Source of the DNA: a virus
DNA length: 42,555 nucleotides
IMG/VR virus record: IMGVR_UViG_3300036766_000086
Span: 1 to 42,555 of that record
Direction: 5' to 3' (one strand)
Position 1 is the first letter of the stretch. Every line of letters begins with the position of its first letter. This document shows positions 8,655 through 38,414 of the stretch, piece after piece. Under the pieces are notes generated by a model. It was not told where the DNA came from, ran no database searches, and was given only the letters and a program-made list of their open reading frames with translations. The translations under genes and the position numbers were made by a program.

Positions 8655-9164
8655 ATGGCACTCTATACAATCTGGAACGGCCCAGCACCCACGACCGCAG
8701 CGCAAGTACCTGTTACCACCGGCACAGCAATTAAAACGTTACTGCAACTCTCCACAAGCGCAACTAAGCCCGCCAAGGTTGTTGAATGGGGCATTAGCTT
8801 CGATGGCTCGGCAGCAGCAACGCCAATCAAGTGCGAGCTGATTGAAACGGATGTTGCAGCAACAGTCACCGCACATGTAACCGCTGGCATAATTAAAACT
8901 GACGGTGAAGCACTGGCCGGTGGTGATCCAGTAACTAACTTGCTTCCGGTAGGTACAGCGGCAACAGGTTACACCGCTACAGCGGAAGGAACAATCACTG
9001 CAAGCCGCGTACTGGATGCGCAACTGGTCGCGCCAACAAACCAATATGTAAAACAATTCCCATTAGGTCGTGAGCCGATCTTGCAAATATCAAAGTTCGG
9101 ACGTGTGCGAGTAACTGCTGGCGCTGCTGTTAATGCGCTCTGCTATATCGTTGTTGAAGTTTAA
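8655..9164 (+). CDS. Probable virion-associated protein
   Basis: A 169-residue, Ala/Thr-rich beta-type protein with no cysteine-rich or enzymatic motif. The start is well defined by AAGGAGG. Its composition (few charged residues, many T, A, V, G) and position after the portal suggest a capsid-associated or appendage protein. It opens a block of seven structural-looking proteins (8655-13672) that separates the portal from the protease. Function not established. Confidence 0.7.
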   Translation: MALYTIWNGPAPTTAAQVPVTTGTAIKTLLQLSTSATKPAKVVEWGISFDGSAAATPIKCELIETDVAATVTAHVTAGIIKTDGEALAGGDPVTNLLPVGTAATGYTATAEGTITASRVLDAQLVAPTNQYVKQFPLGREPILQISKFGRVRVTAGAAVNALCYIVVEV

Positions 9165-9184
9165 TTTAATTTAAGGAGAACACT

Positions 9185-9472
9185 ATGGCAGCAGCAGTAG
9201 ATTACATCCCCGTGGCAAACGTAAAAACTTGGGGGCAGCAGACCGTTACTTTGGGTAATATGCTTCGCACGATACGCGCAATGGTAAGTGACCAGAAAGC
9301 TGCGATGGATCATCTTACCGATGGTACAACTGACTTTACAAAAATCGAAGCTCAATTCGGGCTGGCTGCTGGTGATGGCATAAGACTTTATACATTGATG
9401 TCTACGCTAAATACACAGATTACAGGTAGCACAGCCGTAAACGATTTCGCCAATAAAGTGCAAGCGTCTTAA
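9185..9472 (+). CDS. Small structural-type hypothetical protein
   Basis: A 95-residue mainly helical protein (NMLRTIRAMVSDQKAAMDHLTDGTTDF...), with its start behind AAGGAGAACACT. Helical Ala-rich sequence in a block of beta-rich proteins could make it a connector or oligomerisation partner for its neighbours. No family recognised. Confidence 0.65.
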   Translation: MAAAVDYIPVANVKTWGQQTVTLGNMLRTIRAMVSDQKAAMDHLTDGTTDFTKIEAQFGLAAGDGIRLYTLMSTLNTQITGSTAVNDFANKVQAS

Positions 9473-9485
9473 TCAGGGGTAGCAC

Positions 9486-10238
9486 ATGGCTATTGCCTAC
9501 CGAGGTGGTGGATCAAACTCAAGCAACGGGAGCACAGCCACAACAGTAGTTGTAACAATGAGTTCTACCGCTCAAAGCGGTGACTATCTCATTGCTACAG
9601 TTAACGCGGATTCAAGCGGTGCTGTAAGAAGTTGGCCTGCCGGATTTACCGAGCGCGGTTTGAAAGATACAAACTTTGGCGATGGCGGGGTGATGGCTTG
9701 GGCGGATTACGTCGCCGGTGCTAGTGAGCCATCAACTTATACACTCGGCACTACCAGCAATACGCATGTTGCAGCTTCGGTCGTAGCTTATAGCGGCGTT
9801 GATAACACCACCCCGAGAGACGTAACACCAACCTCTTTAGAGACTCACGATGCAAGCAGCACGGTATTCAGCGTACCTACTACCGGACTCGCATCAGGTT
9901 CGGCGAATCGCTGGCTTGTATTTCTGGGTGGGCTGGATAACAGTTCATCGGGTACAGTCAGCAACGATATTTCAGCTCAAACTACCCCGGCAACGTGGAC
10001 TGAGCGAGTAGATAAATCAAGTACTGATTTCGCCAATATCGCTGTTTGTGATGTACTGGATAGTGCGGGGACATTTACCAGTGCCGTAACAAGCTCACAA
10101 ACCAATACGGGTTCGGCAGGAATTGCAACTGCGCTGGGGTTCCTGATTGCACTAAGGTCGGCAACGGGTGGTGGTGGCGCAAACTGGCTAAAACAAGGTT
10201 ATTGGTGGAATCATGTATATGGGAATGGGAGAAATTAA
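9486..10238 (+). CDS. Beta-sandwich appendage-like protein
   Basis: A 250-residue protein with MAIAYRGGGSNSSNGSTATTVVVTM...SGDYLIATVNADS...WPAGFTERG. This pattern is seen in jelly-roll or Ig-like surface modules of phage and bacterial extracellular proteins, with a C-terminal glycine-rich stretch (GGGGANW). It ends one base before the next gene and is probably co-translated. A role as fibre or decoration component is inferred from composition and neighbours. Confidence 0.65.
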   Translation: MAIAYRGGGSNSSNGSTATTVVVTMSSTAQSGDYLIATVNADSSGAVRSWPAGFTERGLKDTNFGDGGVMAWADYVAGASEPSTYTLGTTSNTHVAASVVAYSGVDNTTPRDVTPTSLETHDASSTVFSVPTTGLASGSANRWLVFLGGLDNSSSGTVSNDISAQTTPATWTERVDKSSTDFANIAVCDVLDSAGTFTSAVTSSQTNTGSAGIATALGFLIALRSATGGGGANWLKQGYWWNHVYGNGRN

Positions 10239-12713
10239 ATGTTACTAAGTATTCCGCAAGGAGCCACATCAAAGATAATCCTGATACCGATATTCGATTC
10301 ATCGTCGACTACTGGCGCTTTATTGACAGGATTAGCGTACAACACTGCATCACTGACAGCCTACTATAACTTGGAAGGCGCTGCTGGTGCTGCTACTGCG
10401 ATAACTCTAGCCACTGCGACCAAAGGTACATGGGCAACAGGTGGATTTATTGCTGTTGATGGTACGAATATGCCCGGGTGGTATGAATTACACGTCCCAA
10501 ACGCAGCTCTAACTGGGCAGAAATCAGTTGCGATTCATTTAAAAGGGGCCACAAATATGGTTCCAGTGGCAATTCTTATCGAATTGACCGCTACAAGTAA
10601 TCAAGATGCAGTGAGAGGTGGCATGACTGCTCTGCCCAATGCTAACGCCGCAGCTTCCGGCGGTCTCATCATAAATGGCTCAAACACTGGAACAGTTACC
10701 CTTGCAGCGGCAACTGTGACAGGAAGCTTGACGATCAGTGATGGCCTGCTGATTAGCCGGAGTTCAAGCAATGCCTCGGCTATCACAGCAACAGGGAACG
10801 GCACTGGTTCCGGTATCGTAGCCACCTCTGGCTCAGGCGCAACTGGCACTGGTATCCGGGCCGTCTCCGCAGCAACGAATGGAGATGGTATTTATTGTCT
10901 TGGGACTGGAACCCTTAATGGCATATTCGGCCAAGGGGGTAATGGGGCATCTGGCGATGGGGCGCACTTCGTCGGTGGTACTGGGGCCAGTTCAGGTATG
11001 CGTTGCATTGGCGGGGCGACCAGCGGTTCGGGCATCTATGCAACTTCAACAGCTACTAGTGGTCACGGTATCGACGCAGCCGGTATCGGAGCAAGCGCAG
11101 GCATGAACCTCACTGGCGGAGCCACGGGGAATGGCCTGTTGATTACCGGCGGAGCGACAAGCGGCGATGCAATTCTTACCGCAGGGACAAGCGGACATGG
11201 GGCGTCTTTCGTCGGGACCGGCACAGGCAAGCATGGCATCAATGCGACTGGCGGAGCGGCGGGGGCTTCCCACGGTATCGGGTCAACAGGCGGCGGTACT
11301 GGCTCAGGCATCCTTGCCACCTCGGGGGCTGGGGCTACCGGCAACGGCATAGGCGCGGTATCGAACTCCTCAAATGGAAACGGTATTGTCGGAACAGGTA
11401 CTGGTACTGGCGATGGTATGGCAGTAACAGGTGGAACTACAGGTCGAGGAATCCACGCAGTAGGCGGCGCGACTTCCGGGGCCGGAGCAAGGTTCGAGGG
11501 CACTGCGGGCAACTCAGCAGGTGTTCAAGCGGTCGGTCAAGGTTCGGCAGCCGGTGAAATATTCACAGGCGGTGCGACAGGAAACGGCGCAACATTCACG
11601 GGTGGCGCAACATCGGGCCACGGCATTCAGGCCACCGTTACAAGTGGCAACGAGATCGACGCAGATATTGTCGGCAACATGACGGGGAATATCGCAGGAA
11701 CTATCACCACAGCAACCAATGTCACCACGGTAAACGGTATTGCCGCAAACGTGATTACGGCAGCTTCCATTGCCGATGGGGCGATTGATGCAGCAACCTT
11801 TGCCGCTGATACAGGGCTTGTTCCTATCCGAAGCAACACAGCACAAGCAGGGGCAGCAACAACTATTACCCTTGACGCTTCCGCATCCGCTGTAACAGAC
11901 TTCTACAAAAATGATTTAATTATTCTCACTGGTGGCACTGGTGTTGGACAATCACGATACATAACTGCTTACAACGGCACAACCAAGGTAGCTACTGTAT
12001 CGGCGTGGGCAACGAATCCAGCGGTTAGTACGACCTTCGCTATCATTGCTGCTGATGCCATTGTGGGTGCAACTGCTCCAACAGCCGTACAAGTTGCAGA
12101 TGAAGTACAGACGAGGACAATTGCGGCAGTAACGGTTGTTAATGGATTGGCAGCGAACACAGTAACAGCCGCAGCATTGGCGACAGATGCAGTGACTGAA
12201 ATTCAATCAGGACTTGCAACGCCGACCAATATCACGGCTGGAACAATTACTACGGCAACAAACGTGACAACAGTAAACGGCCTAGCGGCAGGTGTTATCA
12301 CAGCTGCTTCAATTGCAGCGGACGCAATTACTGATGCTAAAGTCGCGGCAGATGTGACTATTGCGAGTGTGACGGGCGCGGTAGGTTCAGTCACAGGCGC
12401 AGTTGGAAGCGTAACAGCCGGTGTTACAGTGACTACAAATAACGACAAGACTGGCTATGCTTTAACTATAACCCCTCCAACGGCTGCTGAAAATGCAACT
12501 GCCGTGCTGACTACTCAAATGACTGAAAGTTACAGAGCAGACGCAGCCGCACCAACGCTCGCGCAGGGGATATGTGAGACACTCGCTCATTTAGGGGAAT
12601 CGTCTATTGCCAGCACAACCAAGACAATCAAGAAATTTGACGGTACAACATCGGCTGGGACATTTACGCTTGACTCAGCTACTACTCCGACCAGTATAAC
12701 AAGGGCGACATGA
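10239..12713 (+). CDS. Large Gly/Ala/Thr repeat appendage protein
   Basis: An 824-residue protein. The N-terminal domain (about 1-125, MLLSIPQGATSKIILIPIFDSS) looks like a globular attachment module. Residues about 165-480 are made of imperfect Gly-rich repeats of the type GxGIxAxGGATSGxG, consistent with a beta-helix or other repetitive fibre. Residues about 480-720 carry a second repeat type (TTATNVTTVNGLAANVITAASIA). Such architecture fits a fibre. It lies in the head module rather than among tail-tip genes, so a head fibre is as likely as a tail fibre. The 3' end overlaps the next start by four bases. Confidence 0.75.
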   Translation: MLLSIPQGATSKIILIPIFDSSSTTGALLTGLAYNTASLTAYYNLEGAAGAATAITLATATKGTWATGGFIAVDGTNMPGWYELHVPNAALTGQKSVAIHLKGATNMVPVAILIELTATSNQDAVRGGMTALPNANAAASGGLIINGSNTGTVTLAAATVTGSLTISDGLLISRSSSNASAITATGNGTGSGIVATSGSGATGTGIRAVSAATNGDGIYCLGTGTLNGIFGQGGNGASGDGAHFVGGTGASSGMRCIGGATSGSGIYATSTATSGHGIDAAGIGASAGMNLTGGATGNGLLITGGATSGDAILTAGTSGHGASFVGTGTGKHGINATGGAAGASHGIGSTGGGTGSGILATSGAGATGNGIGAVSNSSNGNGIVGTGTGTGDGMAVTGGTTGRGIHAVGGATSGAGARFEGTAGNSAGVQAVGQGSAAGEIFTGGATGNGATFTGGATSGHGIQATVTSGNEIDADIVGNMTGNIAGTITTATNVTTVNGIAANVITAASIADGAIDAATFAADTGLVPIRSNTAQAGAATTITLDASASAVTDFYKNDLIILTGGTGVGQSRYITAYNGTTKVATVSAWATNPAVSTTFAIIAADAIVGATAPTAVQVADEVQTRTIAAVTVVNGLAANTVTAAALATDAVTEIQSGLATPTNITAGTITTATNVTTVNGLAAGVITAASIAADAITDAKVAADVTIASVTGAVGSVTGAVGSVTAGVTVTTNNDKTGYALTITPPTAAENATAVLTTQMTESYRADAAAPTLAQGICETLAHLGESSIASTTKTIKKFDGTTSAGTFTLDSATTPTSITRAT

Positions 12714-12931
12714 TAGGCTCTCCATCCTCAATTGTTTCGTTCGGGCTAGGGTCGTGGGCTTCACCGTCCGATATAGTTACGCTTGGCTATGGTATCGGGG
12801 CGGCTGTATTGGCAAGTGCTGCAAATATATACAGACGGAATATAATAGCAGTAGAATCAAGGAACATCGTTATTCATGCCGAGGCAAGACGATTGATTGT
12901 TAAACTAGAAGACAGGGACGATGAGATATGA
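12710..12931 (+). CDS. Small hypothetical protein of the appendage block
   Basis: A 73-residue protein with a hydrophobic first half (SSIVSFGLGSWASPSDIVTLGYGIGAAVLASAANIY) and a charged second half (RRLIVKLEDRDDEI). It overlaps both neighbours by four bases, so translation is coupled. The short repeated phrase (SIVSFGLGSWASPSDIVTLGYG) suggests a compact beta element. Function unknown. Confidence 0.65.
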   Translation: MIGSPSSIVSFGLGSWASPSDIVTLGYGIGAAVLASAANIYRRNIIAVESRNIVIHAEARRLIVKLEDRDDEI

Positions 12932-13194
12932 AAACTCTGGTAAAAGACCCAAGCGCGGTAAAAGATTATGGATTTGATTGGACTTTGTGGATGTCGAGCG
13001 GGGATACAATCTCAACATCTACATTTTCAGGTGGGTTGCTTGGTGTAACTTCATCCTCAATCAGCTCATACAATACGACCTGTTTTGTTACCTGTGGGAC
13101 AGCAGGGACGTTTCATAAAGTCACAAACAGAATTATTACCTCGCAAGGCAGGACGGAAGAGCGTTCTTTTGACATGCAAATAATTAATTTATAA
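12928..13194 (+). CDS. Small virion protein, Ig-like or fibre-associated
   Basis: An 88-residue protein (FDWTLWMSSGDTISTSTFSGG...NTTCFVTCGTAGTFHKVTNRIITSQGRTEERSFDMQI). This pattern is a recurrent small beta domain in phage structural clusters, often next to fibre-like genes. It is probably extracellular or part of the particle. The start overlaps the upstream stop by four bases. Confidence 0.7.
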   Translation: MKTLVKDPSAVKDYGFDWTLWMSSGDTISTSTFSGGLLGVTSSSISSYNTTCFVTCGTAGTFHKVTNRIITSQGRTEERSFDMQIINL

Positions 13195-13204
13195 GGAGAT
13201 CATT

Positions 13205-13672
13205 ATGAGATTACCAGAAGATGATGTAGGAAACGTATTGCAAATGAGCGACCGCACCACTGAAAGCGCGGTACAAACAATGGTTGATGGGACGGTTATG
13301 TTTACGGTATCCGCGCCGATTGATATTCTTGCACTTCGTACGACGTTCGTTACTGGCAATAGTTCATTGGCTGCAACAATGCAATATAAATTTAATCCTA
13401 CTGTTGGAAGTGCTCAAGCTATTTCAGGCGCGTCTGCCGCGTTAACAAGTATGCTCGCAGGAACAGCGATTGACCTTGTACCTACTGCATTAACTACCGC
13501 CCCATTGGTTACACTAGCAGGTTCTGGTGGACTTGCTGTTCAGTCCGTGCTGAATAAAATACGAGTTCCTGCTGGCACGTTAAGCGCGGTATTCGCCACA
13601 TCGTCAGTGACAGGAACATTGAAGCACGTATTACGATATGCACCACTTACACCAGCAGCAACAGTAGTTTAA
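13205..13672 (+). CDS. Virion-associated protein of the appendage block
   Basis: A 155-residue beta-rich protein with many small residues (NSSLAATMQYKFNPTVGSAQAISGASAAL). The start ATG 13205 has AAGGAG upstream. The stop codon overlaps the start of the first radical SAM gene (TAATG), so enzyme and possible substrate are translated together. That makes this protein a natural candidate substrate, by position only. Confidence 0.65.
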   Translation: MRLPEDDVGNVLQMSDRTTESAVQTMVDGTVMFTVSAPIDILALRTTFVTGNSSLAATMQYKFNPTVGSAQAISGASAALTSMLAGTAIDLVPTALTTAPLVTLAGSGGLAVQSVLNKIRVPAGTLSAVFATSSVTGTLKHVLRYAPLTPAATVV

Positions 13673-14325
13673 TGACCCCCATCACAACAGTTCACCAGAT
13701 TGAAATTACTTCACGGTGTAACCTGAAATGTCAGTATTGCCCTCATCCTCACTTACAAAGGGTGAAGGAAGACATGACGATGAAGGTGTTTGTTGCTGCT
13801 TTGGAGTGGACTCAGACGATGGAAAGTCCGGAACTATCACTAACCGGAATGGGTGAATCAACCTTGCATCCACAGTTCTGTGAAATGCTTCGGTTGGCAC
13901 GGTATATTTTACCAGAAACAAAATTGCTGCTTTCAAGCAATGGGGTTAGGGTGTCAGACGAACAGTTAAAGGCGATGCACGACACAAATACTATCTTATG
14001 GATAAGTGCACACCGTCCCGAGGTAGCTGGAAAGACATTGCAGCGCAGCCTTTCCGCACGGGTGATGACCGGAATTAATAACAACATCATTGATAGTGGT
14101 TTTAATTGGGCGGGGCAAGTTAATTGGGCGAACATGGCACCGCCTCACGTGTGCCAGTACCTAGAAAAAGGATGGGCAACTGTATTGTCAAATGGTGATG
14201 TTGTATCCTGCTGTATGGACGCTCACGGATTGCACCCATGGGGCAATGTCATGGATGAAGTAAGGCCAACACATATAGGGGAGATGTCTTTGTGTAAAAA
14301 CTGTCATTTGAGTGTGCCACAATGA
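13672..14325 (+). CDS. Radical SAM protein with SPASM-like C-terminus (copy 1)
   Basis: A 217-residue enzyme. C16-x3-C20-x2-C23 (CNLKCQYC) is the radical SAM iron-sulfur motif, followed by LTGMGESTLHP, which matches the family's glycine-rich SAM-contact region. The C-terminal part has further cysteines (CQYLEKG..., SCCMDAHG, CKNCH) like a shortened SPASM or auxiliary-cluster domain. Radical SAM enzymes of this size modify peptides or proteins, among other substrates. The start overlaps the upstream structural gene, and the 3' end overlaps the second copy by four bases. The substrate is not visible from the sequence. Confidence 0.85.
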   Translation: MTPITTVHQIEITSRCNLKCQYCPHPHLQRVKEDMTMKVFVAALEWTQTMESPELSLTGMGESTLHPQFCEMLRLARYILPETKLLLSSNGVRVSDEQLKAMHDTNTILWISAHRPEVAGKTLQRSLSARVMTGINNNIIDSGFNWAGQVNWANMAPPHVCQYLEKGWATVLSNGDVVSCCMDAHGLHPWGNVMDEVRPTHIGEMSLCKNCHLSVPQ

Positions 14326-14981
14326 TCATCACACAGATTCACCAAGTCGAAATAACCAGTAATTGCAATCTGCGATGCAAATATTGTGTACATGGCAAGA
14401 TGCCGCGCCCTAAAATGGACATGACGCATGAGGTATTCGAGAGGGTGATTGACCTTGTATCGCACTATGTAAAACTAGGTTATCAGCATGAATTAAACTT
14501 GTGCGGGATAGGTGAAAGCACAATTCACCCAAGATTTATACAGTTTATTGATTATGCGCGGGAAAGATTGCCCGACATAGATTTGACTATGGCAACAAAC
14601 GGTGTAGGATTGACACCTGTGATGGCAGAGACATTGTTACGCAATAGGGTTAGAACGTGGGTAAGCCTGCACCGACCTGAAAAAGCAAGCCTTGCAGTTG
14701 AGCTATTAAAGAAACATGGGGTGCTGGCAGGTGTAAGTGCTGACCCTTCGGTGGCCGCAGTTGATTGGGCTGGACAGATTGATTGGCATGTAAGTGCTGA
14801 AAAAATACCGTGCATGTGGCTGGCCTTGGGGTATGGGATAGCATGGTCAGATGGCCGCATAGGTACATGCAGCTTTGACGGACAAGGCGAGGATGGTGCA
14901 ATTGGAACGGTATGGGATGACCCCGCCACACTGTACAGTAAGCCATATTTGCTTTGTGAGAAATGCCACATGACGCACTAG
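14322..14981 (+). CDS. Radical SAM protein with SPASM-like C-terminus (copy 2)
   Basis: A 219-residue paralog of the preceding gene. It shares ITSNCNLRCKYC (C15, C19, C22), GIGESTIHP at the equivalent place, a VDWAGQIDWH segment (copy 1 has FNWAGQVNWA), and C-terminal cysteines in CMWLALG, CSFDG and CEKCH. The pair probably arose by tandem duplication and has diverged strongly. Retention of all iron-sulfur cysteines in both argues that both are active, perhaps on different residues or as a heterodimer. Confidence 0.85.
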   Translation: MIITQIHQVEITSNCNLRCKYCVHGKMPRPKMDMTHEVFERVIDLVSHYVKLGYQHELNLCGIGESTIHPRFIQFIDYARERLPDIDLTMATNGVGLTPVMAETLLRNRVRTWVSLHRPEKASLAVELLKKHGVLAGVSADPSVAAVDWAGQIDWHVSAEKIPCMWLALGYGIAWSDGRIGTCSFDGQGEDGAIGTVWDDPATLYSKPYLLCEKCHMTH

Positions 14982-14989
14982 GAGGAAGT

Positions 14990-15139
14990 ATGGACAGAAC
15001 AGATTTTGAAGCAACCATGAGGACGCAGGGCTATAAAGTTGCGACCCGTGATGACGGTACATATTTGGCCCAAGACGTGCAAGACGCTTGGGAAAAGATG
15101 AAGCCGACAAAGATAGAAAAGCCAGCGAAGGGGGGTTAG
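14990..15139 (+). CDS. Small hypothetical protein between radical SAM and protease genes
   Basis: A 49-residue protein (MDRTDFEATMRTQGYKVATRDDGTYLAQDVQDAWEKM...) starts at ATG 14990 behind GGAGGA. The pattern FExxMRxQGYxVxxxxDGxYxxxxVQxAW resembles a small domain that recurs in phage genomes. It lacks cysteines. It ends one base before the protease start codon. Confidence 0.65.
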   Translation: MDRTDFEATMRTQGYKVATRDDGTYLAQDVQDAWEKMKPTKIEKPAKGG

Positions 15140-15140
15140 T

Positions 15141-16163
15141 ATGGAATTGAATGCTGAAATTTTTGCAGTCGGTAAATGGAACGGCATGGAGTTCAGTGCA
15201 TCCGACCTGGTCGCAATGGCTGAAACATTCGCCGCGCTTGGCGATAATCACAAAGTCCCTTTAAAGTTTGGGCACAACAACGAACAGGCAATGACAGACG
15301 GGCAACCCGCACTAGGCTGGGTTTCAAAAGTCTGGGTCGAGGGTAATAAATTGATGGCGCAATTTACCGACCTGCCAAAGATTGTCTATGACGCTATTCA
15401 GAAAAAATTATACAAGAACGTGAGTGTGGAACTTGACATGGACGTGCAATACAAAGGTTCAAGTTTCCCTTACGTTTTATCCGGTGTTGCATTACTAGGT
15501 GCTGACATTCCTGCGGTCAATACCTTGAAAGAACTGACTCACTATCTCAGCCGAGACGCTAATTTTAGCGTTGGTCGCCGCGCTGTGTTTTCAGCTATCG
15601 CAGGCAAATCAGAAGGAGATCAAAACATGGAACTAGCACAGTTGACCCAAAAGGTCGTAGAGCTAACAGCAATGGTCTCAACTTTGACAACTGATAACGC
15701 CGCATTGAAAGCCGATAAGGTAGAGATGAGCGCAAAGGTTTTAAAGTTTGAGGCTGATGCCAAAGCGAAAGAGGAATCCACTGCCAAAGCAGGTATCGTT
15801 GCGAAACGTGCCGAGGTAGTTGCTATCCTTGAAGATGGCGTGAAGTCCGAAGCAATCACACCCGCAACCCGCGAACAGTTCACAAAACTGATGCGCGTGG
15901 ATGACGATGAGGCTGTGATGGCAATCGACATCGAAGAAGTTAAAAAGCTTACCGCGAATGGTAAAAAGCAATTCAGCAAAGAGCAAGGCCGTCAAGGCCA
16001 GGGCGAAACTGAATTAGCCGTTGACGTTCAGGTGGCTAATGAGATTCAAGCATTGATGGCGAAGAAAGAAGCATCTGATTTCTTCACCGCTCAGTCTTTA
16101 GTCTTTTCCCGTAACCCGAAATTGGCTCGTGAGTATGCCGATTTCAATGATGAGAGAGGTTAA
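15141..16163 (+). CDS. Prohead protease with scaffold domain (Mu gpI-like)
   Basis: A 340-residue protein. Residues 1 to about 145 (MELNAEIFAVGKWNGMEFSASDLVAMAETF..., PLKFGHNNEQ, LGWVSKVW, NVSVEL, SGVALLGADIPAV) match the Mu gpI-like protease region. Residues about 160-290 are highly charged and helical (LTQKVVELTAMVSTLTTDNAALKADKVEMSAK), typical of a scaffold. One gene therefore supplies assembly core and maturation protease, as in Mu, where gpZ also arises from the gpI frame. An internal ATG at 15627 with AGAAGGAGATC upstream could give a separate scaffold product. Confidence 0.85.
   Translation: MELNAEIFAVGKWNGMEFSASDLVAMAETFAALGDNHKVPLKFGHNNEQAMTDGQPALGWVSKVWVEGNKLMAQFTDLPKIVYDAIQKKLYKNVSVELDMDVQYKGSSFPYVLSGVALLGADIPAVNTLKELTHYLSRDANFSVGRRAVFSAIAGKSEGDQNMELAQLTQKVVELTAMVSTLTTDNAALKADKVEMSAKVLKFEADAKAKEESTAKAGIVAKRAEVVAILEDGVKSEAITPATREQFTKLMRVDDDEAVMAIDIEEVKKLTANGKKQFSKEQGRQGQGETELAVDVQVANEIQALMAKKEASDFFTAQSLVFSRNPKLAREYADFNDERG
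15627..16163 (+). CDS. Possible internally initiated scaffold protein
   Basis: Inside the protease gene and in frame, ATG 15627 has GAAGGAG ten bases upstream (AGAAGGAGATCAAAACATGG). Initiation here would give a 178-residue protein (MELAQLTQKVVELTAMVST...) consisting only of the coiled scaffold part. Mu makes its scaffold gpZ in the same nested way. The strong ribosome binding site in mid-gene is the main evidence. Confidence 0.6.
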   Translation: MELAQLTQKVVELTAMVSTLTTDNAALKADKVEMSAKVLKFEADAKAKEESTAKAGIVAKRAEVVAILEDGVKSEAITPATREQFTKLMRVDDDEAVMAIDIEEVKKLTANGKKQFSKEQGRQGQGETELAVDVQVANEIQALMAKKEASDFFTAQSLVFSRNPKLAREYADFNDERG

Positions 16164-16165
16164 TT

Positions 16166-16546
16166 ATGAGCACTCATGGACTACAAAATGATGTGTCTAT
16201 TTCTGCAACTGTGGACTTGTCTACATTTCAGTATAAGATCGTCGCAATTGACGGAACACTTGCAGCAACGAATGCTGTTGCTTGCGGTGTTTTGTTGAAT
16301 AAACCAAAATTAGGCGAGTCTGCTAAAGTTGCTTTTCAGGGACACATGAAAGCATATTGTGGCGGTGCTGCAATCGTCGCGGGTGCACAACTGGCTGTTA
16401 CCACCAGTGGATACCTTATCACTAACGCAACATCAACAAGTGGTATCGTTGGTCGCGCACTTAAAGCTGCCACGTCTGGCTCGCTTTGTGAGTTCATCGG
16501 GGATTTCTCGACTGCTCGCAACAGCTACAGCATCGGCATAATCTAA
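16166..16546 (+). CDS. Capsid decoration protein (DUF2190-like)
   Basis: A 126-residue beta-rich protein with VVAIDGTLAATNA-type sequence and GAAIVAGAQLAVTTSGYLITNATSTSGIVGRALKAATSGSLCEF. This matches small decoration or stabilisation proteins placed directly before the major capsid gene in many phages. The start follows the protease stop by two bases. It most likely binds the capsid exterior at lattice junctions. Confidence 0.75.
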   Translation: MSTHGLQNDVSISATVDLSTFQYKIVAIDGTLAATNAVACGVLLNKPKLGESAKVAFQGHMKAYCGGAAIVAGAQLAVTTSGYLITNATSTSGIVGRALKAATSGSLCEFIGDFSTARNSYSIGII

Positions 16547-16556
16547 GGAGAACTCT

Positions 16557-17507
16557 ATGGGATCATCTACAGGTCGTGATTTACATATTGATCAGGTACT
16601 TTCTCAAATGGCGATGGGTTATCGTCCGTCTGGCTTCATTGCAGATATGATTTTCCCCACTGTTAACGTGCAGAAGCAATCTGATTTATATATGGTTTAC
16701 AATCGTGGTGACAGAACTCGTGTCGAAGATACAACTCGTGCCCCCGGAACATTGGCGCGTCGTGTAACTGAAGACACTGGGTCTGCCACTTATTTCGCAA
16801 AGAACTATGCACTTGCCGCTTCTGTTGTTCTGGAAGACAAAGCAAATGCAGACCCAATGATGTTGTCGCAATTGGTCAACGGGAAAGCAACCTACATTCT
16901 GGACAAGCTGTTGCTTGACTGGGAGCGTCGCGTTGCGTTGATGGTAACTTCTGGCTCGAACGTCGGTTCATCTTCCGCTGTAACTTCGGCATGGAACGGC
17001 GCTGGTAATCCAATTGGAAACATCAATACTGCTTTAGACAACGTCTGGGGTGCTAATGGTGTACGTCCTAACCGTATCGTTATGGGTATCAATGCTTGGA
17101 AGTCATTCCGTCGTGACAGCACTGTTCGCGGATTGATTTTTGGTAGCAACAACGGTGGTGGTTATCCAAACACCGATCAAGCTGCTGCATTGCTTGATGT
17201 TGATTCAATCCTGATTGGTGGTGCTTACCAAAACACCGCACAAGAAGGACAGAGCGATACACTTGCATCAATCTGGAATGATCAGGTTCTTGCTTACGTG
17301 GCTCCTTCTGCTCCTTCGCTGGATACACCAAGCTTCGGTTACAACTTCCGCTGGGCTGCAAACGGCTTGCCTAATATGCAAGTCGAGCGACATCCTTACG
17401 ACAGTCGTATCAAGGCTGAATTGATTGAAGCTGGATACTACCAAGATGAAAAAGTCACCGGCGCAAGCTATGGCTTCTTGTTGAAGTCGGTAAACAGTTC
17501 TACGTAA
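16557..17507 (+). CDS. Major capsid protein
   Basis: A 316-residue protein with features of HK97-fold capsid proteins of the Mu-like branch: RPSGFIADMIFPTVNVQKQSDLYMVYNRGDRTRVEDT at the N-arm, DKLLLDWERRVALMVTSGSN along the long helix, and NRIVMGINAWKSFRRD in the A-domain. It follows protease and decoration genes and is followed by terminator-like hairpins. It starts behind AAGGAGAACTCT. There is no obvious delta domain ahead of the N-arm, consistent with a separate scaffold. Confidence 0.9.
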   Translation: MGSSTGRDLHIDQVLSQMAMGYRPSGFIADMIFPTVNVQKQSDLYMVYNRGDRTRVEDTTRAPGTLARRVTEDTGSATYFAKNYALAASVVLEDKANADPMMLSQLVNGKATYILDKLLLDWERRVALMVTSGSNVGSSSAVTSAWNGAGNPIGNINTALDNVWGANGVRPNRIVMGINAWKSFRRDSTVRGLIFGSNNGGGYPNTDQAAALLDVDSILIGGAYQNTAQEGQSDTLASIWNDQVLAYVAPSAPSLDTPSFGYNFRWAANGLPNMQVERHPYDSRIKAELIEAGYYQDEKVTGASYGFLLKSVNSST

Positions 17508-17818: not shown

Positions 17819-20701
17819 TTGTTCATAGTTATGCACTGCGGCGGTCTTAAATTTAACGGGGACACAATAAAAAAACAATCCCTAGGCGGCAGCGAAAGCG
17901 CCGCCTACTATGTAGCCCGTGAACTTGTTTCACAGGGAAACAGCGTTACTCTTTTCACAAACTCTGAGGACACTGGCGTTTTCGATGGTGTCAAATATGA
18001 GTGGGCAGGTAATCTATCAGAGGATAATCCACTAGGCGACAGGTTCACTTATTACGCCGAGAATACTCCTCACGATGTCTGCATCATCCAGCGTCACCCC
18101 CGCGCCTTCGAGAGCAAGTATGCCAGTAAGATGAATTTCTGGTGGGTGCATGACCTTGCGCTATATCGCTCGAAAGATATTGTGATTGGTCAAATGTGGA
18201 ACGTGGACGGGGTTCTGTGCGTGTCTGAATATCACAAGGAACAAATCGTAAAGGTCTACGGAATTGAAAAAGACTTTATTCATGTAATCAAAAACGGCGT
18301 TGACCTTTCGTTGTACGAATGTGAGCCGCTTGCCCTGCCTGCTGATGAGCGTCATGTATTTTACTCATCCCGACCCGAACGTGGCTTGATGAATTTGGTT
18401 ATGGCCGGTGGGATTATGGACTTGGTCAAGGATACGAATATTCACTTGCACGTATGCGGGTACGACAATACAACCTCCGAAATGGCTCCCTTGTACAACG
18501 CACTTTGGGAACGATGCGACCAACTCGACAACGTTACAAATCATGGCGCACTGACCAAACAGGAATTAGCCGCACTTCAAAAGGCTTGTGAAGCATGGGT
18601 ATATCCTACAGAGTTTGAGGAAGTATCCTGTATTACTGCAATGGAAGCGATGGCCGCTGACTGCAAGATTATTGCAAGTAATTGTGCTGCATTACCTGAG
18701 ACATGCGCGGATACTGAGGCGCATTTAGTCGCATTGCAAGACGAAAAAGTCAATCCTAAAATGTTTGCAGATACCGTGCAGTTGATGGGCGCATTCAAAC
18801 GTAATGGAGAATTTGCAGCGCAGTATTCATGGGCGAAAGTTGCTGATAGGATTATCTCGACAGCAAAGCAAATATTTTCAACCAAGAATCATCTGTCTTT
18901 GTCGCATCACTTTATCCGTCACTCAGACATTCCAACATATGAAGCATTGGGAATGATTGATACAACATCATCTTTTCAGGCTTCATTAGAAAATGAATTC
19001 GAAAAAGGGTACGCATTTTACAGGGACGATACTTATGAGCAGCACTACAAAAACTATTATCAATACGAAAAAGACAGGGGAATCGAATACGGCGCTGAAG
19101 ACGTTACTGGAACTACTCGTTTTAAGTCTGTTGCCAATATGGTTAGCCAGTTATCTGGCGGTTCTCGCGTTCTCGATTATGGCTGCGCTCATGGTCATTA
19201 CACTGTCGCTCTTGCTCGGCTGTTCCCAAATCTTGTTTTTGTTGGCGCTGACATTACGCAGAGCAATATTGATACAGCTACGAAATGGGCTGATGGGGAA
19301 GGCCTGACGAATATCACATTTCAAAAGGTGTCTGGCGTTGACGATATTAAACCTTCCTTTGATTTAATTATCGCGGCGGAAGTGATTGAACATGTTGGCA
19401 ATCCGCAGGACTACATCGACACTCTAGCAGACTCGCTTGCGACAACCGGAAAGATGGTATTAACCACTCCATATGGGGCGTGGGAAGCACAGGGTTATCG
19501 TGAGCATGGATTCTGGCGTGCGCACTTGCACCACTTCGAACGGGCAGACTTGTTTGAAATGCTCGGCCATCATCCTGAATACAAGATTATCGCTGCCCCG
19601 AGTGGGCTGTCAAAATTCCATTCAGCCCTTGGCAGTTACATTGTTTCGTTCAGCAAACCAACAGAGCCTAGCAAGCCAATTGACTATCAGCGCAAGATTA
19701 AGCAGACTATGCCAGATCAAACAGTTTCAGTATGTATGATAGTTAAAGACGGCGAGGCTGATTTAATGCGCTGCCTTCGCTCTGTTGCCCCGTATGTTCA
19801 AGAAATAATTATCGGCGTTGACGATACGACAAAGGACGGTACATTCTCAGTGATTGATAATTTTAATTTAGATAACCCATTGGTGCAGGCTTATTCATTC
19901 TCGATAGTGACGCCGCTGAAGCAAGGGTTTGCCGCTGCCCGTAATCAAACTTTGGCAAAGGCTTCCTGCGATTGGGTATTGTGGATTGATTCGGATGAGA
20001 TACTTGTCCGGGGTGATGTTATGTCCCGCTTCCTGCGTCACTCGATGTACAACGGATTCGCAGTTAAACAACATCATTTCAGCCATGACCCGACAGCAAT
20101 TATTAAAGTGGACATGCCTTGCCGATTGTTCAGAAACGATAAAGGGATTCAGTTCTTTGGTAAGGTACACGAACACCCTGAAATCGTGATGAACGAAGGT
20201 TTGGGCGCTGTTTCTATGATGCCCTTCTTGGCGATTGTCCATCATGGTTATGTCGACGAAAGGGTGCGCCGGACACGATTCAGCCGCAACCTTCCATTGT
20301 TAAAACAGGACAGGGAAGAACGCCCTAGCAGATTGCTTGGTAAGTTTTTATGGCTTCGTGACCTTGCCCAATCTTGCCAGTACGATATGGAAGACGGTTC
20401 AGCCGATCAGGGTATAATGCAGCAACGCGCAAAAGAAGGTATCAAGTTGTGGGAGGAATTGCTGGAGGCAAAGAACTGGCGTTTGCTGATTGACTCGATG
20501 CCATATTACTCGCAGCTTGTAGCAATCAAGGGCGATGGCGTAGATTTTAGTTTTATGATTGATGCCAGCTTGATGCACGAATCAGACGCATCTAAACAGC
20601 CAAAGGTTCAAGGCTATTTTGCAAACCGTGCGCATATAACTTCCGTACTTTTGGGTATGGCAGAGGATAAAATTGGCGATCAGGAAAGGCGGTATTTATG
20701 A
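17819..20701 (+). CDS. Three-domain enzyme: glycosyltransferase, methyltransferase, glycosyltransferase
   Basis: A 960-residue protein. Residues 1 to about 360 form a GT-B, GT4-type glycosyltransferase (LGGSESAAYYVARELVSQG near 20-40, VIKNGVDLSLYE, EEVSCITAMEAMAADCKIIA). Residues about 400-610 form a class I SAM methyltransferase (VLDYGCAHGHYTVALA near 450, ADITQSN, IIAAEVIEHVGNP). Residues about 634-840 form a GT-A, GT2-type glycosyltransferase (VSVCMIVKDGEADLMRCL, VLWIDSDEIL near 722). The product would build and cap a sugar chain. The start is TTG 17819, six bases after AAAGGAG, so translation may be kept low. It lies between capsid and neck genes and overlaps the next gene by four bases. 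Its substrate is not evident from the sequence. Confidence 0.9.
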   Translation: MFIVMHCGGLKFNGDTIKKQSLGGSESAAYYVARELVSQGNSVTLFTNSEDTGVFDGVKYEWAGNLSEDNPLGDRFTYYAENTPHDVCIIQRHPRAFESKYASKMNFWWVHDLALYRSKDIVIGQMWNVDGVLCVSEYHKEQIVKVYGIEKDFIHVIKNGVDLSLYECEPLALPADERHVFYSSRPERGLMNLVMAGGIMDLVKDTNIHLHVCGYDNTTSEMAPLYNALWERCDQLDNVTNHGALTKQELAALQKACEAWVYPTEFEEVSCITAMEAMAADCKIIASNCAALPETCADTEAHLVALQDEKVNPKMFADTVQLMGAFKRNGEFAAQYSWAKVADRIISTAKQIFSTKNHLSLSHHFIRHSDIPTYEALGMIDTTSSFQASLENEFEKGYAFYRDDTYEQHYKNYYQYEKDRGIEYGAEDVTGTTRFKSVANMVSQLSGGSRVLDYGCAHGHYTVALARLFPNLVFVGADITQSNIDTATKWADGEGLTNITFQKVSGVDDIKPSFDLIIAAEVIEHVGNPQDYIDTLADSLATTGKMVLTTPYGAWEAQGYREHGFWRAHLHHFERADLFEMLGHHPEYKIIAAPSGLSKFHSALGSYIVSFSKPTEPSKPIDYQRKIKQTMPDQTVSVCMIVKDGEADLMRCLRSVAPYVQEIIIGVDDTTKDGTFSVIDNFNLDNPLVQAYSFSIVTPLKQGFAAARNQTLAKASCDWVLWIDSDEILVRGDVMSRFLRHSMYNGFAVKQHHFSHDPTAIIKVDMPCRLFRNDKGIQFFGKVHEHPEIVMNEGLGAVSMMPFLAIVHHGYVDERVRRTRFSRNLPLLKQDREERPSRLLGKFLWLRDLAQSCQYDMEDGSADQGIMQQRAKEGIKLWEELLEAKNWRLLIDSMPYYSQLVAIKGDGVDFSFMIDASLMHESDASKQPKVQGYFANRAHITSVLLGMAEDKIGDQERRYL

Positions 20702-33570: not shown

Positions 33571-34377
33571 CTATAAAGTGCAAGCGTTAAAGCATTCCTC
33601 TAATATCGAATAAGCTACTGCGGCCTGGAGGGGGACTTGACCGTTTCCGAGGGCTTTAAGTTTACCCACCCTATCGGCCACCCCATTAGCCACGCGACCC
33701 ACATCGGGTTCAGACTTCCACCACCCTTCTCTAACTTCACAGTCGTTGATAGCCCTATCTGTTTCCCTATCGCAATCCTTCGTTGTATTGACTTGTCCGA
33801 CATATTTCCTCTGTCCCTGTTGTCTGATGCTTGAGGGGTAGGCCAATCCTGCCGCCTCTTGAGTGCCTTCCTCCCGTCTGGCAAGCAACCACCACCTGTC
33901 ACGACCGTGATTTGCGCCAACATCGGAAGCTCGTATACATATCCATCTTGCAGAATACCCGCGCGCGGAAAGGTCTGCGAGAACAGTTCCCAACCCGTTA
34001 TTAAGGATTGCTGACACGTTTTCCAAGAAGAGTTCCCGAGCTCTAACCACGTCAGCGATTCGGAGGACTTCCCTATACAATCCGCTTCGTGTTTCTTCGC
34101 CAACACCAGCCTGCTTGCCTGCAACGCTAATATCTTGGCATGGGAATCCTGCATGGATGCAACCCACTCGTCCCGCGTAGTCGGATGGATCGAACAACCT
34201 AACATCTCCCTCGAACACTGACAGATCAGGGAACCATCCGTCTGCTGCTCTGGCTCTGAGGACTGAACAAGCGTATTTGTCCCATTCGACAGCGATGATA
34301 GGTCGCTTGCCGAGTATGAGGTCAGCGAGAAGCCCACCGCCTGCTCCCGCGAATAAGTGCATAGTGTTTTCATTCAT
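33571..34377 (-). CDS. DNA cytosine-5 methyltransferase
   Basis: A 268-residue enzyme with motif I LFAGAGGG (8-15), motif IV GFPCQDIS (catalytic Cys80), motif VI FLENVSAIL (118-125), motif VIII GANHGRDRWW, and motif X LKALGNGQVP near the C-terminus. The target-recognition region is short, so specificity is unknown. It probably protects phage DNA from host restriction. ATG 34377 overlaps the upstream stop (ATGA). Most of the gene is also open in the +1 frame, which encodes a second conserved protein. Confidence 0.9.
   Translation of the reverse strand: MNENTMHLFAGAGGGLLADLILGKRPIIAVEWDKYACSVLRARAADGWFPDLSVFEGDVRLFDPSDYAGRVGCIHAGFPCQDISVAGKQAGVGEETRSGLYREVLRIADVVRARELFLENVSAILNNGLGTVLADLSARGYSARWICIRASDVGANHGRDRWWLLARREEGTQEAAGLAYPSSIRQQGQRKYVGQVNTTKDCDRETDRAINDCEVREGWWKSEPDVGRVANGVADRVGKLKALGNGQVPLQAAVAYSILEECFNACTL
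33615..34373 (-). CDS. Overlapping-frame conserved protein inside the methyltransferase gene
   Basis: A 252-residue frame starts at ATG 34373, four bases after the methyltransferase start, and is open over almost the whole gene. Its product has SSWKTCQQSLITGWELFSQTFPRAG, DWPTPQASDNRDRG and GGSLNPMWVAWLMGWPIGW. I recognise these as features of a protein type commonly annotated in phages next to, or as, cytosine methyltransferases. Conserved motifs in two frames argue for dual coding. It could instead be a widely propagated shadow frame kept open by the constraints on the enzyme. Confidence 0.5.
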   Translation of the reverse strand: MKTLCTYSREQAVGFSLTSYSASDLSSLSNGTNTLVQSSEPEQQTDGSLICQCSREMLGCSIHPTTRDEWVASMQDSHAKILALQASRLVLAKKHEADCIGKSSESLTWLELGNSSWKTCQQSLITGWELFSQTFPRAGILQDGYVYELPMLAQITVVTGGGCLPDGRKALKRRQDWPTPQASDNRDRGNMSDKSIQRRIAIGKQIGLSTTVKLEKGGGSLNPMWVAWLMGWPIGWVNLKPSETVKSPSRPQ

Positions 34378-37941: not shown

Positions 37942-37964
37942 ACCTTTTGGTTACGGAGAACGAA

Positions 37965-38414
37965 TTGCTAACTATAACACCTATAAATCTTGACGAAGCA
38001 AACGCCTTTGTCTCAAAGCACCACCGGCATTATAAACCAGTGCCAGGGGCGAAGTTTTGCATTGCAGTTAGCGAAGATAATGTTGTGCGGGGCGTTGCAA
38101 TTGTTGGGAGGCCAGTCGCAAGGATGAGTGATACAGGCTTTACGCTCGAAGTAAACCGCTGCTGTACAGACGGTGCGCGTAATGCCTGCTCAATGCTCTA
38201 TGGCGCGGCATGGCGGGCGGCGAAAGCTTTGGGGTATCTCAGGCTTATAACCTACACATTGCCAGAAGAGGGTGGCGCGAGTTTGCGGGCTAGTGGATGG
38301 AAGAATATAGGATTAAGAGGGGGCGGAAACTGGAATGTTAAGTCACGCCCAAGGATTGATACCGCCGAATTACTACAAGGGCAAAAAACCTTGTGGGAAG
38401 CCTGCGGTGGCTAA
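37965..38414 (+). CDS. XF1762-type phage protein, acetyltransferase-like (cassette gene)
   Basis: A 149-residue protein (LDEANAFVSKHHRHYKPVPGAKFCIAV...GVAIVGRPVARM...LEVNRCCTDGARNACSMLYGAAWRAAKALGYLRLITYTLPEEGGASLRASGWK). These motifs are those of the XF1762 family of phage proteins, which have a GNAT-like fold pattern. TTG 37965 is chosen because ACGGAGAA is four bases upstream and the family starts with MLTI.P. The stop codon lies in the next attC-like core (GGCTAAC). Confidence 0.85.
   Translation: MLTITPINLDEANAFVSKHHRHYKPVPGAKFCIAVSEDNVVRGVAIVGRPVARMSDTGFTLEVNRCCTDGARNACSMLYGAAWRAAKALGYLRLITYTLPEEGGASLRASGWKNIGLRGGGNWNVKSRPRIDTAELLQGQKTLWEACGG

Follow-up and report, generated by a model that had tools for sequence, protein, structure and literature searches.

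Paired minimal Twitch radical SAM enzymes with kinship to BtrN in the head module of an uncultivated phage, and their possible role in glycan tailoring

Two adjacent genes in the head module of an uncultivated phage encode radical SAM proteins, here P0001 and P0002, whose closest solved structure is BtrN, a Twitch radical SAM dehydrogenase of butirosin biosynthesis. The family to which they belong is real and carried by phages; its members are minimal Twitch enzymes of the radical SAM type with BtrN kinship, and the best-supported reading of their function, which we hold tentatively, is that they may serve in making a sugar coat. The window, by which we mean the whole stretch of DNA analysed, is a 42,555-base virus contig with terminase, portal, protease, capsid and tail genes (Table 1), and no DNA similar to it was found in the phage collection searched. 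With 217-219 aa, where the BtrN structure models 246 residues, the two products are unusually small as complete Twitch radical SAM proteins, a size useful for structural work.

Table 1. Features of the window discussed in the text
Feature	Coordinates	Strand	Match or basis
Portal fused to minor-head (SPP1 gp7-like) domain, 832 aa	6135..8633	+	phrog_113 7e-66, TIGR01641 3.7e-13
155-aa protein, substrate proposed in the sequence-only reading	13205..13672	+	no Pfam, PHROG or NCBIfam match
Twitch radical SAM enzyme, class A (P0001, 217 aa)	13672..14325	+	PF04055 3.8e-11
Twitch radical SAM enzyme, class B (P0002, 219 aa)	14322..14981	+	PF04055 1.7e-11
49-aa ORF between radical SAM and protease genes, not specific to radical SAM loci	14990..15139	+	similar ORF in L068, by eye
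Head maturation protease	15141..16163	+	phrog_976 5.1e-32
126-aa protein at decoration-protein position	16166..16546	+	conserved in most loci, flanked by protease and capsid genes
Major capsid protein	16557..17507	+	phrog_1005 3.2e-63
F5, GT4-methyltransferase-GT2 fusion, 960 aa from TTG 17819; proposed glycan-synthesis partner	17819..20701	+	Pfam
DNA methyltransferase	33574-34377	-	
Mom-like DNA modification protein	37947-38411		phrog_1384 1.4e-38

The sequence-only reading had described the pair as diverged paralogs lying upstream of protease and capsid genes, and both points held: the two ORFs are intact, their products score above the curated cut-off of the Pfam Radical_SAM model (PF04055), they are 33-34% identical to each other (BLASTP E 8e-44), and the protease and capsid genes follow in that order. 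The two genes share an ATGA overlap at 14322-14325, and the 155-aa ORF upstream ends in a TAATG at 13672 that overlaps the first of them. Because of these overlaps, translational coupling of the 155-aa ORF and the radical SAM genes is likely. The same reading had taken the coupling to tie the 155-aa protein to the enzymes; the overlap is there, but the tie is not, as no relative of this protein (E 1e-8) was found in the other 101 loci searched. The protein is unique to the window contig, so the coupling is incidental, and the 155-aa protein was ruled out as a substrate.

By motif, core-domain match and predicted fold, P0001 and P0002 are radical SAM Twitch enzymes. The CX3CX2C cluster (residues 16/20/23 and 15/19/22 in the two proteins) is present in both, and seven cysteines, the three of this cluster and four near the C terminus, are invariant in 65/65 aligned relatives, which is far from chance; the early remarks on both sets of cysteines were therefore sound. 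The C-terminal four follow the pattern C-X18-C-X27-30-C-X2-C in all 65 relatives, with X27/28 spacing in the window pair, and are the conserved cysteines after the barrel among the nine of P0001 and the eight of P0002. SPASM membership was considered and rejected. The seven-Cys motif that defines it, CX9-15GX4C-gap-CX2CX5CX3C-gap-C as set out in an excerpt of PMC6231123, is absent; the proteins have four auxiliary cysteines, enough for one cluster, and no more, and are therefore Twitch enzymes rather than "SPASM-like" as previously labelled. The letters of a reported "GES motif" are present, but they form the end of the GxGE motif and not a separate one.

AlphaFold predicted both structures with high pLDDT (96.0 for P0001, 96.3 for P0002), with five barrel strands and four helices, a short barrel, ahead of the Twitch part, and both predicted folds align along the Twitch domain of BtrN. 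BtrN (PDB 4m7s, 4m7t) was the best fold match for P0001 (Z 20.8, rmsd 2.9, 213 residues aligned) as well as for P0002 (Z 20.6, rmsd 2.6, 210 aligned), and a Foldseek search with P0002 gave BtrN at 1.6e-11 and the next protein at 2e-6. The second-best enzyme by fold was the anaerobic sulfatase-maturating enzyme anSME (PDB 4k36-4k39; Z 17.3 for P0002 and 16.6 for P0001), which acts on a protein. SpeY (PDB 7wzv, 7wzx, 7x0b), another Twitch radical SAM dehydrogenase, works in spectinomycin biosynthesis; it was matched in both fold searches, though at far lower Z (12.6 and 13.3), and is longer than the phage enzymes. When the family profile was compared with PDB sequences, BtrN matched at 3.1e-19 over barrel and Twitch domain, whereas all other matches were at 1.3e-11 or weaker and in nearly all cases covered the barrel alone. 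Against NCBIfam profiles, every match to a named maturase fell below its cut-off and indicated no more than a distant relationship.

The phage enzymes share with BtrN the short barrel followed by a Twitch domain, the CX3CX2C cluster, the four-Cys auxiliary site and a His, invariant in 65/65 relatives, that aligns with a His of BtrN. They differ in being only 17-18% identical to it and ~30 residues shorter, in a residue that is an invariant W, within a WAG motif, in the phage enzymes and is aligned with R (SNRGG) in BtrN, and in setting: they occur as paralogs in head modules in which an aminocyclitol pathway was not seen, whereas BtrN belongs to the butirosin pathway. BtrN is thus the closest solved structure by both sequence profile and fold. 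In the available parts of PMC9012708 and PMC6231123, it is described as converting an aminocyclitol alcohol to a ketone, with a fully ligated auxiliary cluster. For the phage enzymes we infer a similar dehydrogenation of a sugar; according to the same portion of PMC6231123, sequence networks make neither fold nor function easy to predict in this subgroup.

Among known phage proteins, phrog_1802 and other phage radical SAM families matched the core (4e-15 and 1.2e-11); the phrog_1802 profile has 556 positions, and the match covers the first ~115 residues of the window proteins. No INPHARED phage record covered 80% of either protein. The widest scan for relatives returned at least 599 stretches; near-identical or overlapping contigs were removed (11 loci at first, more before the later counts). 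The family itself, taken at >160 bits, is present in at least 44 non-redundant contigs: 24 carry two copies and 20 a single one, some of the latter being cut by the contig end. Below this, four loci (L047 and L049-L051; loci and contigs carry L numbers) scored 91-141 bits, and ordinary phage radical SAM proteins <62 bits. The 65-row alignment and tree comprise the 71 radical SAM genes minus six: the frameshifted L015, the partial L046 and second L101 copy, and the distant L047, L049 and L051. Class B (P0002-like) genes form one clade of 20 rows (SH-aLRT 100), class A (P0001-like) rows fall outside it, and a second lineage has two classes of its own; given this branching, the pairs are old paralogs. 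B-type genes stand alone in L017, L023, L028, L089 and L103.

The same capsid gene lies in the locus in 34 of the 44 radical SAM contigs (among the matches listed), so that diverged paralogs of this kind recur in the structural module across many phages and are not found mainly in unrelated contexts, the outcome that would have refuted the sequence-only reading. This recurrence makes it plausible that they help to build or decorate the virion. In those 34 contigs the genes take one of several places: the portal-protease interval, the stretch from capsid gene to F5, a position past F5 or, in one case, the gap separating two tail genes. They shift place, yet mostly stay in the head module near F5; an exception is L021, where the gene lies on the same contig ~28 kb from F5, far from the capsid gene and on the opposite strand. 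The family is phage-borne and patchy on the capsid-protein tree, with 13 changes in presence, of which at least 11 fall on starred branches, where shuffling gave a mean of 18.5 changes; the count may be too high, as most short contigs were scored as lacking the gene and L059, with a gene fragment, as having it. In the nearest capsid relative, L068 (93% identical), portal gene, 49-aa ORF and protease gene follow in a row, and the whole window block 8655-14981, ~6.3 kb between portal and protease, is missing; the L068 sequence can be followed as far as F5. That block also holds genes for an 824-aa protein and a gp77 fibre-tail adaptor beside the radical SAM pair. We also noted that the fused portal/minor-head gene of the window is matched in two pieces by many relatives. 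The name "decoration protein" for the product following the protease is suggested by its position.

Directly after the capsid gene lies F5, a phage-encoded glycosyltransferase sitting with head and tail genes, in which Pfam detected Glyco_transf_4 (6.6e-12), Methyltransf_31 (2.4e-16) and Glycos_transf_2 (1.5e-9) domains. For all 21 radical SAM contigs that show at least 4.5 kb past the capsid gene (among the matches listed), F5 was present. It was also present in 24/26 loci lacking a radical SAM gene, the other two ending within 0.8 kb of the capsid gene; these 26 include L080, whose contig carries the radical SAM gene of L021, so that their true number is 25, and that of the ten such loci spanning portal to tail is nine. 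F5 is thus a core gene of this capsid lineage, and its co-occurrence with the radical SAM genes within the lineage says little. Stronger evidence for a link to sugars comes from outside the lineage. L042/L043 are a single virus type that has UvsX- and SbcCD-like genes and whose contig carries no phrog_1005 capsid gene; there the radical SAM gene is ~0.54 kb from an F5 homologue. In another phage, L049, a GT2-MT-GT2 gene is overlapped by the gene of a distant member of the family. Against such a link, no F5 homologue was found in the distant-member contigs L047, L048, L049 and L051.

Between or next to the radical SAM genes, and often within 60 bases of one, we found FkbM methyltransferases (L008, L031, L034, L101), Methyltransf_11 proteins (L010, L035, L037) and sulfotransferases (L008, L032); ten neighbour proteins were scanned, one of which had no match. 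FkbM genes (PF05050) were present in 12/43 contigs with radical SAM genes and 0/25 without (Fisher 0.002), a comparison made with Pfam PF05050 counts only, the local FkbM, MT11 and Sulfo models having been seeded from radical SAM neighbours. Most FkbM carriers are related phages, and on the capsid tree the 11 independent pairs gave 0.4 in the same direction and 0.0 in the opposite one (p near 1), so that the enrichment is not phylogenetically independent. The window has no FkbM gene. Given the capsid protein, radical SAM divergence had a partial r of 0.36 with F5 and 0.61 with the protease, the portal equalling F5, and within the A/B lineage the correlation with F5 was 0.09. Co-evolution specific to F5 was therefore not supported, since the protease tracked the radical SAM genes better and the portal equally well.

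In the reading that we favour, which falls a little short of an even chance, P0001 and P0002 would be paralogous Twitch dehydrogenases in a phage glycan pathway with F5 as its core and a product most likely on the virion. Each enzyme would cleave SAM reductively at the CX3CX2C cluster and take hydrogen from the carbinol carbon of a sugar, whether free, nucleotide-linked or already attached, with the second electron passing to the four-Cys auxiliary cluster. A keto-sugar would result, or with later steps an epimerised or aminated sugar, and would then be elaborated by glycosyl- and methyltransferases and, in some phages, sulfotransferases. Dehydrogenation, sugar substrate and virion acceptor are all presumed in this scheme, and the two copies may act at different positions or in sequence. 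The basis, by sequence and predicted fold, is two intact radical SAM/Twitch proteins, BtrN kinship, location and neighbours. The neighbours point to sugar tailoring rather than to modification of a virion protein because the recurrent genes are F5, methyltransferases and sulfotransferases. It is possible, if rather doubtful, that phages use radical chemistry for virion-surface sugars: minimal Twitch dehydrogenases, usually a diverged pair, would work with F5 and with FkbM and sulfotransferase proteins to decorate the capsid with keto-, methyl- or sulfo-sugars, forming a variation module, antigenic or receptor-shielding, that has repeatedly been lost and regained. If so, a switchable surface trait would fit the patchy distribution, which shows at least 11 changes on the capsid tree (some of the absences come from short contigs).

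It counts against the glycan reading that the close folds also include RiPP maturases and anSME, a dehydrogenase that modifies protein. The sequence-only reading had proposed that the pair modifies a virion protein; direct changes of this kind might be a conversion of Ser or Cys to formylglycine as by anSME, an epimerisation or a cross-link. The nearest folds include anSME, SuiB and SkfB (Z about 15.6-17), the genes lie in the structural module and, of the distances compared, those of the neighbouring protease are tracked best. However, after correction no column marked the phages bearing radical SAM genes in the capsid (44 rows), decoration (50) or protease (46) alignments, a test that left out ten contigs too short for calling absence and that a residue common to the whole lineage would escape. 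An N-terminal RRE or peptide-recognition domain is absent, the first barrel strand starting at residue 5-6; the 155-aa protein is not conserved; and L042 has the enzyme without a phrog_1005 capsid gene. No credible recurrent precursor-like small ORF was found nearby: when 358 ORFs (25 aa or longer, no more than 2 kb from radical SAM genes) were clustered, the families present in most contigs were methyltransferases. These negatives lower the proposal to a rather unlikely one, which is still the main rival of the glycan reading; to our knowledge, anSME likewise has no recognition domain. The 49-aa ORF was rejected as a precursor peptide, because a similar ORF lies directly between portal and protease in L068, with no radical SAM gene at that place. 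A 43-aa ORF (94 aa in L013) of uncertain coding status ending at the first radical SAM start occurs in six contigs of one close group (L008 8376-8507, with equivalents in L010-L013 and L015), and may be a leader peptide or merely a conserved upstream region.

Other targets are less probable still. The enzymes might act on the host, remodelling surface glycans in superinfection exclusion or making an anti-defence small molecule, and phage glycosyltransferases are indeed often read as O-chain modifiers, as stated in part of PMC7029224. The viperin NCBIfam model also matched P0001 and P0002 weakly (5.1e-7 and 5.5e-8), but its scores of 29 and 32 bits are far below the model cut-off of 180; viperins are a worse fold match than BtrN (Z about 14), and the genes are mostly found in the late head/tail module and not in an early or moron region, so that a host target appears improbable. 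DNA hypermodification, with F5 and the radical SAM pair building sugars on phage DNA, would give a place to the Mom-like gene and the DNA methyltransferase of the window, and phage glycosyltransferases can glycosylate DNA, a point noted in an excerpt of PMC12619734. We consider it the least probable of the readings weighed here: F5 is separated from the methyltransferase gene by about 13 kb and from the Mom-like gene by about 17 kb, it and the radical SAM genes mostly keep with head genes across the family, and its GT2 domain resembles a peptide glycosyltransferase, matching the model of the S-glycosyltransferase SunS (1.6e-13, below the model cut-off). It is also very unlikely that one copy is active and the other a redundant duplicate under loss. 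The single copies in 20/44 contigs (some cut by the contig end) and the frameshifted L015 copy would fit such decay, but both window copies are full length with all seven cluster cysteines and a pLDDT of 96, and 24 contigs retain both of the two classes, which are old.

If the glycan reading is right, a class of phage radical SAM enzymes would be tied to particle making rather than to host metabolism, and virion glycosylation would be linked to chemistry known from aminoglycoside biosynthesis. In mycobacteriophages Che8, Corndog and Myrna, phage glycosyltransferases decorate capsid and tail tube, and the part of that account available (PMC12363180) does not mention a radical SAM enzyme; the glycosyltransferases described here form a GT4-MT-GT2 fusion, and glycosylation by it is predicted. 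Excerpts from two other papers place radical SAM genes in phage genomes, in pelagimyophages as cassettes in the same host-recognition regions as glycosyltransferases (PMC7029224) and in alphaproteobacterial phages as one gene named beside queuosine genes (PMC10783043). Among the open-licence PMC papers listed in our searches, none was seen from title or abstract to have radical SAM enzymes and virion glycosylation acting together, a weak negative, and none made a BtrN-like phage family evident.

Using class B patterns to scan genome contigs, we detected one contig, in a Zixibacteria MAG, that agrees with L017 in length and matches. Among 98 Zixibacteria genomes, a full-length member (299 bits) was present in that contig only, the next match being at 62 bits and covering the barrel alone. 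L017 and L063 are one and the same phage contig, whose sole family member is a class B gene; its binning in this MAG (MEWP01000162.1) hints at the phylum of the host. Separately, several radical SAM-like genes of ordinary length are arrayed in two large phage contigs (L060 9962-17319 and L061 7397-19960).
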